Positions 5,176 to 57,973 of a stretch of DNA of 64,000 nucleotides are shown here, piece after piece. Under the pieces are notes generated by a model. That model searched no databases. It worked only from the letters and a program-made list of their open reading frames with translations, and was not told the origin of the DNA. The stretch is taken from the NCBI RefSeq assembly GCF_028583545.1, contig NZ_CP087106.1, positions 5,315,001-5,379,000 on the forward strand. The letters run 5' to 3'. This DNA is from Methylobacterium sp. NMS14P (GTDB lineage Bacteria > Pseudomonadota > Alphaproteobacteria > Rhizobiales > Beijerinckiaceae). A program made the position numbers and the translations under genes. The stretch's first letter is position 1. Each line of letters starts with the position of its first letter.

Positions 5176-6426
5176 CTAGTCCAGTCGGACCAGGAGCTCG
5201 CGCATGCCGCCGACATCGACGAAGGTGGCGAGGTCGCGGGCGAGCAGGCCGGCATGCTGCTCCGCGTAGGCCGCCGGCGTCAGCGTCCGCAGGAACGCCG
5301 TCACCGATTCCGCGAGCGGCTCGGGAAACGCCCAGCCCAGGCGCTCCGCCACCGCGTAGCGGCCGGTGGCCGTCGCGGCGCGCGCCAGCGTCAGGGCGCC
5401 GCACAGGCCGCCCTCGTAGAGCCGGTTCGGCAGAAGCCAGTCCGAATTCAGTCCGTCATCGAGGTAATCGACGGCCCAACTGAAGTGGATCCCGCTGTAG
5501 ATCTCCGGAAGATCGCGGGGATTGGCGTAGGCGCCGCGGAACGACATGTTCGGCCGGCCGTCCAGCGTGTCCGCCAGCGTGCGCGGCGAGATGTCCTCCT
5601 CGGAGAGGCGCCCAGCCAGGACGATCCGCACCGAGTCGCCGAGGGCGTCCGCGATGGCGGCGAGGATCGTCAGGCTCCGGCGGCAGCGCAGCGTCCCGAA
5701 CCAGCCGATCACCCAGGGCGGCTCCGCCGTCCGGGTGCGGTCGAGCCGGGTCGCCACCTCGCCGAGGCGGTGGCCCATGACCTTGTTCTCGAGGAGGTGC
5801 CACGCGCCGGCGAAGCCCTGGACGGGGCGGAAATACCGGTCGATGAAGTCCGGGGCGCTGACGACGAGGAGATCGCTGCGGTCGAGGAGCCAGCGCTCGA
5901 CCGCGCGGGCGATCCGCCCCGGGGCGTCCGGCCGGACCATCAGCCGCTGGATGTCGAGCACCTCGTAGACGAGGCGCGCGCGGCTCCCGGCGAGGCGCGC
6001 CGCGGTCCAGGCCACGAGGGCCATGTCGAGGTTGCGCACGTAGATCACGTCCGCGGCGCGCAGGTCGCGCCGTCGGCGCAGCGCCCGGACGATGCCGACG
6101 GCGAGGCGCGGCAGGCGGCGGGCGTAGTTCCGGTCGACGGTCAGGCCGAGGGGGACGATGTCGTCCGCCGCCGGCGCCTCGGCCGCCACCCCGCCGGGGC
6201 GGTCCCGCTCGAAGGCGTACACGACCACCGACCACCCGGCGTCCCGGATAGCGTCGACCCGCTTCCGGACCGTGGGCTCGGCCCTGTCGTGTCCGAAGAA
6301 GGCGACGCGGCCGCGGCGGGCGGCTCGGGAGGCGCTGGCGGAAACCGGGAGGGCCGGGGTCGGTGCGGCCGCGGTCGGCGCGAAGGCCGCCACGCCGTCG
6401 AGGCCCTCGGCGCGCGGGCCGGTCAC
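5176..6426 (-). CDS. Glycosyltransferase, GT4-like
   Basis: A 416-aa probable cytoplasmic glycosyltransferase of the GT-B fold. The N-terminal domain carries GRVAFFGHDRAEPTVRKRVDAIRDAGWSV, a typical start of group-1 transferases; a C-terminal donor-binding domain has WVIGWFGTLRCRRSL and IVLAGRL, then GLNSDWLLPNRLYEGGLCGAL near the nucleotide-binding loop. It starts at the GTG at 6426, overlapping the stop of the Wzc-like gene by 4 bp (GTGA), so the two are translationally coupled. It is the third gene of the minus-strand export operon. Sugar specificity cannot be told. Confidence 0.85.
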   Translation of the reverse strand: MTGPRAEGLDGVAAFAPTAAAPTPALPVSASASRAARRGRVAFFGHDRAEPTVRKRVDAIRDAGWSVVVYAFERDRPGGVAAEAPAADDIVPLGLTVDRNYARRLPRLAVGIVRALRRRRDLRAADVIYVRNLDMALVAWTAARLAGSRARLVYEVLDIQRLMVRPDAPGRIARAVERWLLDRSDLLVVSAPDFIDRYFRPVQGFAGAWHLLENKVMGHRLGEVATRLDRTRTAEPPWVIGWFGTLRCRRSLTILAAIADALGDSVRIVLAGRLSEEDISPRTLADTLDGRPNMSFRGAYANPRDLPEIYSGIHFSWAVDYLDDGLNSDWLLPNRLYEGGLCGALTLARAATATGRYAVAERLGWAFPEPLAESVTAFLRTLTPAAYAEQHAGLLARDLATFVDVGGMRELLVRLD

Positions 6427-37725: not shown

Positions 37726-38484
37726 CTACTTGGCGCCGCCGCGCACCAGGGTCAGGAAGCGGACCTGCTCGTTGGCGTTGTCCTTGAAGACGCCGCGGAA
37801 CTGGCTGGTGATGGTCGAGACGCCGGCCTTCTGGACGCCGCGCATCGCCATGCAGAGATGCTCGGCCTCGACCATCACGGCGACGCCGCGGGGCTTGAGG
37901 ATGCTCTCGATCACGTCGGCGATCTGGGCGGTCATGGTCTCCTGCGTCTGCAGGCGGCGGGCGAAGGTGTCGACCACGCGGGCGAGCTTCGACAGGCCGA
38001 CCACGCCCCGGGTCGGGTAGTAGGCGATGTGGGCGAGGCCCATGAACGGCACCATGTGGTGCTCGCAGTGGGAGTGGAACGGGATGTCGCGCACCAGCAC
38101 GATGTCCGAGTAGCCCTCGACCTCCTCGAAGACGCGCTCAAGCAGCTTCTCCGCGTCGACCGCGTAGCCGCCGAACAGCTGCTCGTAGGCCTTGGTGACC
38201 CGGGCCGGTGTGTCGAGCAGGCCCTCGCGGGTCGGGTCGTCGCCGGCCCAGCGCAGGAGCGTGCGCACGGCGGCCTCGGCCTCGGCGCGGCTCGGGCGGC
38301 CGGTCTCGATCCCGTCCGGGACGCGGGTCGCGGAGGCCGGCTCGGGCGCCACCTCGACGGGACGGCCGTCATCCACCGGCCGATTGTCATTGCGCATGCC
38401 GTTCAGCCCTTGCCCGTCGATCCCGTTCCGGTCGAAACCCTGGCCGTCGCCCTGATACGACAGGGATTTGAGCGCGGCATCCAT
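37726..38484 (-). CDS. folE: GTP cyclohydrolase I
   Basis: Converts GTP to 7,8-dihydroneopterin triphosphate for folate and methylotrophy-linked pterins. About 252 aa. Zinc ligands are in [12 protein letters not shown] and LCMAMRGVQ; the substrate motif [19 protein letters not shown] is present. A 60-residue Gly/Asn-rich N-terminal extension precedes the core. I start at the ATG at 38484 because GGAG lies five bases upstream; ATGs further upstream lack a site. Followed by hisI. Confidence 0.95.
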
Positions 38485-38784
38485 GGCATCTCCGGCCCGC
38501 GCGATGCGGGATTTCATCGGGGTGCTGTCGGGCTTGGCGTACATCGTCGGATCGCGTCGGGCGTTCGAGGGAAGATCCCGGGCTCGAAAAGGTTTCAAGC
38601 CGGCGCCCCGGGATGGACGAAAGGCCGTGGGAACCACCGTGGCCGTGGGCGCGACCCTGGTCGACGGCCCGCCTCCTCGCGAAGCGGCCGTATCGCGCCT
38701 ATATCATCGTTCGCGGGGCAACGCGCAATGCGCGTCGCACGCGGCAGAGTCCCGATGGACATTGTGCCTCCGGCCGAGGACCCG

Positions 38785-39228
38785 ATGCTCGACGACATCT
38801 ACAACCGCCGTATCCTGGAACTCGCCGCCGACATCCCCCGGCTCGGCCGGCTCGAGAACCCGGACGCGAGCGCCACGGCCCACTCGCGCCTGTGCGGCTC
38901 GACCGTGACGGTCGACCTCGTCCTGGGCGAGGACGGCCGGGTCGCGGATTTCGCCCAGGAGGTGCGGGCCTGCGCCCTCGGGCAGGCCTCCTCGTCGCTG
39001 ATGGGCCGGCACGTGGTCGGCGCCAGCGCGGACGAGTTGCGCGGCGTCCGCGCGGCCATGCGGTCCATGCTCAAGGAGAACGGCCCGGCGCCCGACGGCG
39101 CGTGGTCGGACCTCGCGGTGCTGGAGCCGGTGCGGGACTTCAAGGCGCGCCACGCCTCGACGCTCCTGACCTTCGACGCGGTGGTGGACGCCCTCGATCA
39201 GATCGCCGCCAAGCGGCAGGCCGCCTGA
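38785..39228 (+). CDS. NifU-like iron-sulfur cluster scaffold
   Basis: A 147-aa IscU/NifU-N-fold protein. It begins LDDIYNRRILELAADIPRLGRLENPDASA, with cluster-ligand cysteines in RLCGSTVTV and VRACALGQASSSL. The third IscU cysteine is missing (RHASTLLTFDAV), as in the alphaproteobacterial subgroup linked to YidD. Probably a scaffold or carrier for Fe-S clusters; the function of this subgroup is poorly defined. Start at 38785 with GAGGA upstream; an alternative ATG is at 38755. It ends 4 bp before yidD. Confidence 0.85.
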   Translation: MLDDIYNRRILELAADIPRLGRLENPDASATAHSRLCGSTVTVDLVLGEDGRVADFAQEVRACALGQASSSLMGRHVVGASADELRGVRAAMRSMLKENGPAPDGAWSDLAVLEPVRDFKARHASTLLTFDAVVDALDQIAAKRQAA

Positions 39229-39232
39229 CGGC

Positions 39233-39565
39233 ATGGTCCGGCGCGCCGCCCACTGGGCGATCCGCGGCTACCAGCTGACGCTGTCGGGCCTGGTCGGCCG
39301 CCAGTGCCGCCACTGGCCGAGCTGCTCCGAGTACACCGACACGGCCATCGCCCGGCACGGGTTCTGGCCCGGCGGCTGGATGGGCTTCGCCCGGATCTGC
39401 CGCTGCGGGCCGTTCGGCACGCACGGCATCGACCTCGTCCCGGAGCGCCTGCCCGCGGGGGCGGCGTGGTACCGCCCCTGGACCTACGGCCGCTGGCGCG
39501 GCGTCGAGGCGCCGCCGTCACCGTTCGCCTGCGAGGCGGTGGCGCGGGAGGTCGACGCGCGGTAG
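39233..39565 (+). CDS. yidD: Membrane protein insertion efficiency factor YidD
   Basis: A 110-aa member of the YidD/DUF37 family, which helps YidC-dependent insertion of membrane proteins at the inner membrane. Typical motifs: AIRGYQLTLSGLVGRQCRHWPSCSEYT, then GFARICRCGPFG. The conserved cysteines are present. It follows the NifU-like gene by 4 bp, a linkage commonly kept in Rhizobiales. The parS site lies 15 bp downstream of its stop. Confidence 0.93.
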   Translation: MVRRAAHWAIRGYQLTLSGLVGRQCRHWPSCSEYTDTAIARHGFWPGGWMGFARICRCGPFGTHGIDLVPERLPAGAAWYRPWTYGRWRGVEAPPSPFACEAVAREVDAR

Positions 39566-39580
39566 GTGGCGTTCCTGTTT

Positions 39581-39596
39581 TGTTTCACGTGAAACA
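39581..39596. other. parS: parS centromere site (ParB-binding)
   Basis: The 16-bp palindrome TGTTTCACGTGAAACA matches the nearly universal chromosomal parS consensus at all positions. It is bound by ParB and used in chromosome segregation, usually within some tens of kilobases of oriC. No parA/parB gene is in this window. It lies intergenically between yidD and a facing pair of family B repeats. Confidence 0.85.
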
Positions 39597-39616
39597 CGGC
39601 CTCGACGAGCGCGGGC

Positions 39617-39754
39617 CCCCTCTCCCGTTCGGGAGAGGGACAGGGTGAGGGACGTGCGCCATCCGGAGAAGGCGCGACTGCCCCGACGTCGCCGGCGTGC
39701 CCGACCCTGAAAAGTCTACTCCGTCACCCCAACCCTCTCCCGCACGGGAGAGGG
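39617..39754. repeat. Facing pair of family B palindromic repeats (second locus)
   Basis: Arms 39617-39654 (plus orientation) and 39723-39754 (reverse complement), each with the CTCTCCCG/CGGGAGAG hairpin and GTGAGGGACG-type tail. The arrangement copies the locus at 34391-34530, with a 68-bp spacer. No gene lies in the surrounding gap. Confidence 0.75.
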
Positions 39755-39833
39755 AGCAGGTCGCGCTCCGTCATGGGCCGCAAACCTGCGGCGCCCATAG
39801 CCCTGCGGGGGGAGGCGACCGTCCGTCCCGCGC

Positions 39834-40867
<1,034 letters not shown>

Positions 40868-57254: not shown

Positions 57255-57973
57255 GCCTTCGCCGTCGCGCTGGATCTGTTCGGCCCGGCCATCGCTCGCT
57301 CGCCTGAGTACTCTGCCCCCTCCGGTGAGATGCCCGCTTCCGCCCCGCTTGGGAAGCCCGCACGGCCCGCGGCGCGCCGGCGGGATGCGGCGTTTTTGCA
57401 ACGGACCGCGCGGGGTGTGGATTCCGGGCAGAAAAGCCGGCGCTCCGGGGCGGTTTCCCCTTGTCGCGCGGGGCCCGTCTCCGTATATGCGCCGTGCCCA
57501 ATTTCGCACGTGCCTGTGGCCGCGTGTCGGTTGGTGGGCATCCGGTCAACTGCCGGACAGCCGCCAGGGGTCTTAAAGGATCGATGGTCGCAAGGGTGGA
57601 TCCCTACGGCCGGCATCCAGGTGGCGACACCGGACCCCGACAACAACCGGCAGCCGGAGGCGAAACCGGCGAACCCCGCTCTCCACGGGGGACGCAGCTT
57701 AAAGCAACGACGAACGGGCTTTTTTGGTCTCGTCGGCCCTCCAAAGGCCGGCACCGAAGAGGCTTGTTTCTCTTTGCCCGGCGTGCGGTGGGGGTCCTCC
57801 CTTCCAATCCACGGCAGCTTCCGGGTGCTCTGCGCCCGCACTGACGCACGCGTCTCCAAAGCGCGTGGGTCCGCGCGACGCATCGCCCCCTGACGCCGGC
57901 GGTCCCTTCGGGCCGTCATCTTCGACAGCGCGCCCCGCGAAGGGCGCTCGCGAACCCGTGCCGGGAGACGACC
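57255..57973 (+). promoter_or_regulatory. Long structured leader upstream of ornithine decarboxylase, 719 bp
   Basis: No convincing gene. Several local stem-loops lie at 57630-57930, including one around GTCGGCCCTCCAAAGGCCGGC and one around CGAACGGGCTTTTTTGG. Alphaproteobacterial ornithine decarboxylase genes often carry the speF leader RNA motif, so this stretch is the natural place for it. I cannot confirm the motif by eye. It also includes the promoter of the GNAT gene on the minus strand. Confidence 0.4.

Follow-up and report, generated by a model that had tools for sequence, protein, structure and literature searches.

The 16-mer TGTTTCACGTGAAACA at positions 39581-39596 of the window (the whole 64,000-nucleotide stretch analysed, C1:5,315,001-5,379,000 of a contig of 6,268,579 bp, one of three in the genome) is, judging from its sequence, very probably a docking site for a protein that helps to separate newly copied chromosomes. 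We consider it likely that it is a genuine parS of the host ParABS system that lies farthest out on the right arm in an array of some ten sites and acts as an auxiliary loading point for ParB and SMC. Taken by itself, the window site is ordinary for a parS; what stands out is the array to which it belongs, which is unusually wide, conserved and clade-limited, occurring in part of the genus.

The sequence-only reading had described a perfect match to the parS consensus that was unlikely to occur by chance, and both statements were borne out. The site (no strand assigned) is a perfect 16-bp palindrome with zero mismatches, conserved 3' of yidD, and is the sole match in the window with up to three mismatches; 100 dinucleotide shuffles gave an expectation of 0.03 matches per window even at three mismatches. 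A gap of 15 bp separates it from the preceding stop codon, that of yidD (39233-39565, + strand; membrane protein insertion efficiency factor, Pfam PF01809, ORF list), and a gap of 237 bp separates its other side from the end of a convergent gene of the pdxA family (39834-40865, - strand; Pfam PF04166). Further 5' lie a NifU_N/IscU-like gene, which is a neighbour only (38755-39228, + strand; Pfam PF01592), and folE, a neighbouring GTP cyclohydrolase I gene within the region used for the tree below (37726-38637, - strand; Pfam PF01227). Sliding 16-mers and the alignment picked out two T's immediately 5' of parS (39579-39580, + strand): TTTGTTTCACGTGAAA was present in all nine parS-bearing relatives, and a longer T-rich stretch in fewer. 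Between parS and pdxA, at 39608-39765, a palindromic element rich in CTCTCCCG, which by eye looks REP-like, is present twice in inverted orientation. Elsewhere in the window, Rfam matches barely over the gathering score were obtained for an ar45 sRNA (57496-57723) and, adjoining it, a speF leader (57731-57856).

Mapping of all parS matches, which had been suggested as a check, returned ten parS-like sites genome-wide at a limit of two mismatches, and every one of them is on the 6.27-Mb contig that also carries the window and parAB. All ten fell inside 1.02 Mb (C1:4,333,582-5,354,596) and zero sites were found in the remaining 5.9 Mb; the parS pattern read backwards gave 0 matches in the whole genome at the same threshold, against ten for parS. 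Three sites are exact (C1:4,333,582, 4,696,411 and 5,354,581, the last being the window site), five have the asymmetric form TGTTTCACGGGAAACA (C1:4,493,705, 4,803,132, 4,959,485 (reversed), 4,990,551 and 5,188,099) and two have one outermost base changed (C1:4,686,607 and 4,883,215). An extra weak site at 4,710,388 appeared when a contiguous 1.264 Mb was scanned with up to three mismatches. Relative to hemE, the ten sites stand at about -530, -370, -177, -168, -61, +19, +95, +126, +324 and +490 kb. The window site is the outermost of the ten on its arm, and the next parS is 166 kb off. Outside the window, the parS at C1:4883215-4883238 directly abuts TTAACCAT, a word that we take to resemble a CtrA half-site. 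TTAA was found within 25 bp of 10 of 44 parS sites versus 1.1% of random positions, a comparison in which orthologues were counted and the random positions were not spacer-matched.

parA and parB were correctly reported as absent from the window. The only ParB_N protein encoded on the 6.27-Mb contig comes from a gene at C1:4,697,894-4,698,814 (above the Pfam cut-off), immediately preceded by a ParA-like ORF (4,697,002-4,697,859), so that a cognate pair, with ParA recognised by eye, shares the replicon of the window parS at a distance of 656 kb. An exact parS sits inside the 5' end of the ORF preceding the ParA-like ORF; from their sequences, and by eye, we take the ParA-like ORF to be ParA and the ORF before it to be GidB/RsmG. 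The host ParB is canonical: it matched Caulobacter ParB 6t1f with a phmmer E value of 2.4e-68 and carries the parS-reading residues R173 and G201. Together with T179, these residues (Caulobacter numbering, PMC7383237; mapped by eye via alignment to 6t1f) were unchanged in 30 of 30 aligned genomes. Residue 184 (same numbering; loci L222-L251), one of four specificity positions according to an excerpt of PMC7383237, is N in the 17 genomes with an array (see below) and in G028, and Q in the other 12.

Synteny places the presumed oriC in the spacer between hemE (C1:4,862,956-4,864,053) and a divergent kinase-PPPase gene. hemE lies beside a UPF0093 (HemJ-type) gene, and we take this hemJ-type/hemE/kinase-PPPase layout to be the usual alphaproteobacterial oriC setting. 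The spacer contains a short T-rich run, a CtrA-type box (TTAA-N7-TTAA) at C1:4,864,291 and, at C1:4,864,496, a one-mismatch DnaA-type box. Taken alone, these boxes are weak evidence, because the scanned 1.264 Mb holds eight further CtrA-type boxes (nine in all) and 24 unclustered DnaA-type boxes, no 800-bp stretch containing more than one of the latter. Strand composition does not pin oriC, its indicators disagreeing or showing no clean turn: the cumulative GC skew minimum in sampled stretches lay near 5.22-5.32 Mb, the strand bias of the KOPS motif GGGNAGGG had its origin-side turn at roughly 4.48-4.74 Mb, and no clear turn in strand composition emerged from trained 7- and 8-mers. The terminus-side turn of KOPS was sharp (1.67-1.78 Mb), and its antipode at about 4.8-4.9 Mb coincides with hemE if the arms are equal. 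dnaA lies at the contig start, which on a circular contig would put it 1.57 Mb from parAB; in alphaproteobacteria dnaA is no marker of oriC. One 16S motif was found at 4,999,548, between hemE and the window. The search by GC skew and genes proposed in the sequence-only reading thus located dnaA and parAB, but skew left oriC unplaced.

With oriC placed by synteny, the window parS is 490 kb away, or 7.8% of 6,268,579 bp, and therefore inside the ori domain, conventionally set at 20% of the chromosome (PMC7022226, in part). The description of the site as origin-proximal consequently holds in one sense, that it belongs to the ori-containing fifth if oriC is at hemE; "near oriC" is nevertheless loose, because no other parS of the array lies farther out on that arm, the distances to oriC and parAB being 490 kb and 656 kb.

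The yidD-linked site is strongly conserved within one clade. The closest YidD relatives among named genomes were from Methylobacterium species, and an exact parS just 3' of yidD was found in nine of 80 loci (the best 80 of 362 found in named genomes), all within the 19 closest. M. fujisawaense (L137) has TGTTTCAGCTGAAGCA at the parS position, an eroded form. L184 has a three-mismatch match elsewhere in its yidD locus, and the remaining loci of the 80 had no parS with up to three mismatches. In L152, TATTTCCCGTGAAATA (6376-6391) lies somewhat further 3' of yidD and resembles the Noc-binding NBS; it is probably due to decay or chance. A tree of the folE-yidD region, built from 23 loci plus the window, put every one of the ten exact copies in a single 12-member clade (support 0.992) whose branches sum to a length of about 1.0. 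The site was eroded in L137 and missing in L147 within this clade. These losses, together with its presence as an exact word in nine of the 80 loci, indicate that the window parS is not indispensable.

An alignment of 25 of the 80 loci showed that the spacer around parS otherwise hardly aligns. In the spacer 3' of parS (39597-39833 only; the L143 locus ends 123 bp past parS), 0 of 222 16-mers occurred in more than two of the nine parS-bearing relatives, against all nine for parS. The share of 16-mers common to all nine was 0/318 in yidD, 13/459 in the NifU-like gene, 79/897 in folE and 28/102 in the folE/NifU spacer. Strong conservation is therefore not unique to parS, since 16-mers of folE and of the folE/NifU spacer are also kept. 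The retention of parS next to a diverged spacer points to purifying selection, in a comparison conditioned on retention because the nine relatives were chosen for having the site. The folE/NifU-like spacer of the window (38638-38754) has a higher share of common 16-mers than folE, the NifU-like gene or yidD and contains a conserved element. Of five large-contig relatives, four had an exact yidD parS, at +388 (G002), +394 (G050), -525 (G010) and +892 kb (G026) from hemE; in G007, yidD lies about 460 kb from hemE and is without parS. Genome G026, with its yidD parS (C1:2073777) 892 kb from hemE and an asymmetric parS (C1:3799954) 2.6 Mb off, represents either a rearranged chromosome with parS sites retained or a misassembly; given these distances, there is no strict distance rule, or the G026 assembly is wrong.

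The asymmetric word TGTTTCACGGGAAACA accounts for five of the ten sites in the genome, and its retention beside perfect sites is the less expected part. The altered base is an NBS-type C at position 6 of one half-site (numbering and NBS-type C6 from PMC7383237, in part). The flanks of 34 exact or half-altered sites from five relatives were compared with those of the ten sites here; several matches rest on one flank, and that of G007 5,165,475 is weak and offset. All 20 sites matched to asymmetric sites were still asymmetric, and by eye 18 of them had the same orientation to their flanks, the exceptions being G007 4,504,719 and G026 3,799,954. Exact sites gave 12 matches: those of the parAB-linked site (5/5) and of the yidD site (4/4) were all exact, and the site at 4,333,582 had three, one of them asymmetric and the others exact. 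No counterpart here was obtained for two of the G007 sites. The doubly altered word TGTTTCCCGGGAAACA was found neither in the host genome nor in the listed portion (75 of 144) of the sites from 19 relatives. The site G007:C2:4504719 (locus L261) is embedded in a 32-bp near-palindrome with an 8-bp stem extension that adjoins an A tract, and resembles an intrinsic terminator on the other strand.

A change in ParB at position 173, 179 or 201 was rejected as the cause of the asymmetric sites, as none occurred among the 30 genomes. Tolerance of C6 by ParB is plausible, because G201 in the Caulobacter structure is unable to contact position 6 specifically (excerpt of PMC7383237). The parS of Thermus thermophilus, TGTTTCCCGTGAAACA, is the asymmetric form on the other strand, and the Thermus ParB bound it specifically by EMSA with competitors (PMC4409726, in part); the form is thus known to work (excerpts of PMC4409726 and PMC7022226). 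Thermus is listed as having one such site (PMC7022226, in part), whereas in the host the asymmetric form coexists with perfect sites in an array. A literature text search found the asymmetric word as letters only in PMC4409726 and PMC7022226. The form shares the NBS-type C at position 6 with the Noc binding site in one half only (PMC7383237, in part), but unlike NBS it keeps G at position 1 in both halves, and the host ParB is without a Noc-type residue at 173 or 201. A Noc/NBS identity was rejected, as neither A1 with C6 in both half-sites nor Q173/R201 was found.

The array is confined to part of the genus. Counting exact and TGTTTCACGGGAAACA sites over 59 genus genomes, 17 carry five to nine, 41 carry zero to two, and G047 carries five. 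In a midpoint-rooted ParB tree of 30 of these genomes, shown without support values, the 17 array genomes grouped together, with G047 outside. Twelve low-count genomes had one to three parS sites each at up to two mismatches; these were picked for their low counts and are biased when taken alone, whereas the 17/41/1 counts cover all 59. In an order-wide sample, the asymmetric word occurred in four of 100 other genomes, once each. The genome sets overlap, identical contig positions recurring between them, and are not independent.

The host system resembles the chromosomal parS systems of Caulobacter, Bacillus and Pseudomonas in the 16-bp word, in the canonical ParB residues, and in having several sites in the ori-containing fifth with parAB in the same region. 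It differs in its spread of about 1.02 Mb and in an exact site 490 kb from oriC. Caulobacter has five strong parS sites within 5 kb, and a second cluster there is best tolerated within about 500 kb, counted from the native parS and not from ori (excerpt of PMC5815017). A single parS is functional in Pseudomonas when placed between about -200 and +450 kb relative to oriC; positions +545 and +552 mark the outermost limit (excerpt of PMC5098823). The native host set, from -530 to +490 kb, is wider in total than either range reported in these excerpts. There is no paradox in a rim site 490 kb out, because the Caulobacter distance is counted from native parS and the next parS here is 166 kb off, and because parS was moved by 650 kb in V. 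cholerae and by 400 kb in Caulobacter with no defect described in the excerpt of PMC5098823. P. aeruginosa likewise has ten sites, of which eight belong to the ori domain; perfect and mismatched sites both occur there, and the six beyond the four near oriC carry two mismatches each (PMC4368675, in part). In the host, unlike P. aeruginosa, the two outermost sites are perfect and seven mismatched sites lie between them, five being one variant.

The main rival to an auxiliary parS is a near-neutral by-product: parS words would have arisen where extra copies are harmless, and the window site would be bound by ParB without contributing, drifting in and out. We regard this as possible, though unlikely. 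The losses speak for it, with an exact site in one subclade only among the 80 loci and eroded or missing copies in two of its members. So does the finding in Pseudomonas that one oriC-near parS suffices and that the six outer sites cannot replace those four (PMC4368675, in part), as well as the tolerance of a second parS cluster within about 500 kb in Caulobacter (PMC5815017, in part). Conservation speaks against it: the word is letter-perfect in ten of 12 clade members, window included, despite a diverged spacer, which is hard to reconcile with neutrality. A local transcription element, in which ParB or another palindrome-reading factor insulates or regulates the convergent yidD and pdxA, is improbable. 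Such a role would fit a parS retained between convergent genes, 15 bp beyond the end of yidD, but there is no terminator layout (the T tract precedes the palindrome) and the same word stands in other surroundings at other parS sites. A T-rich tract 3' of the palindrome was found at eight of 44 parS sites versus 0.5% of random positions; all eight came from two orthologous sets, and a general part for parS in intrinsic terminators was rejected on that ground.

Two further explanations have next to nothing in their favour. The sequence-only reading had allowed for a chromid with a ParB of this type, and the 542-kb contig C2 does encode its own ParB_N protein; the window, however, lies on the 6.27-Mb contig, no parS with up to two mismatches was found on C2 or C3, and the site adjoins a NifU-like/yidD gene pair that is conserved in relatives. 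A C2 chromid or plasmid centromere was therefore rejected, and a plasmid site or a relic of an integrated replicon is extremely improbable. A chance match without a role is just as hard to credit and was also rejected, given the shuffle expectation, the genome-wide array set against zero control matches, and the conservation of the site.

For an auxiliary parS, the behaviour of the ParB family suggests that the chromosomal ParB, a CTP-dependent clamp, would load at the window site, slide a few kb into the flanking DNA and recruit SMC; the ParB-bound domain proposed in the sequence-only reading would form in this way. The site would most likely serve for auxiliary loading, by which the origin-domain complex reaches farther out along the arm, while sites nearer oriC and parAB would do the actual pulling. 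A broader proposal, which we put forward only tentatively, is that one group within the genus expanded its centromere from few parS sites near parAB to as many as ten over about 1 Mb. The inner half-altered sites would be held asymmetric by selection, and the exact rims (about -530/+490 kb) would be separate ParB/SMC loading points that set the reach of the origin domain on each arm.

A literature search returned, among the matches listed, no title on parS in Methylobacterium or Methylorubrum. An excerpt of PMC7333895 names two open questions: what makes parS sites cluster, and what makes their number differ from species to species. Groups within one genus differ sharply here (five to nine sites versus zero to two, with one exception), and matching parS sites can be traced through chromosome rearrangements; the question of parS number thereby becomes directly testable.
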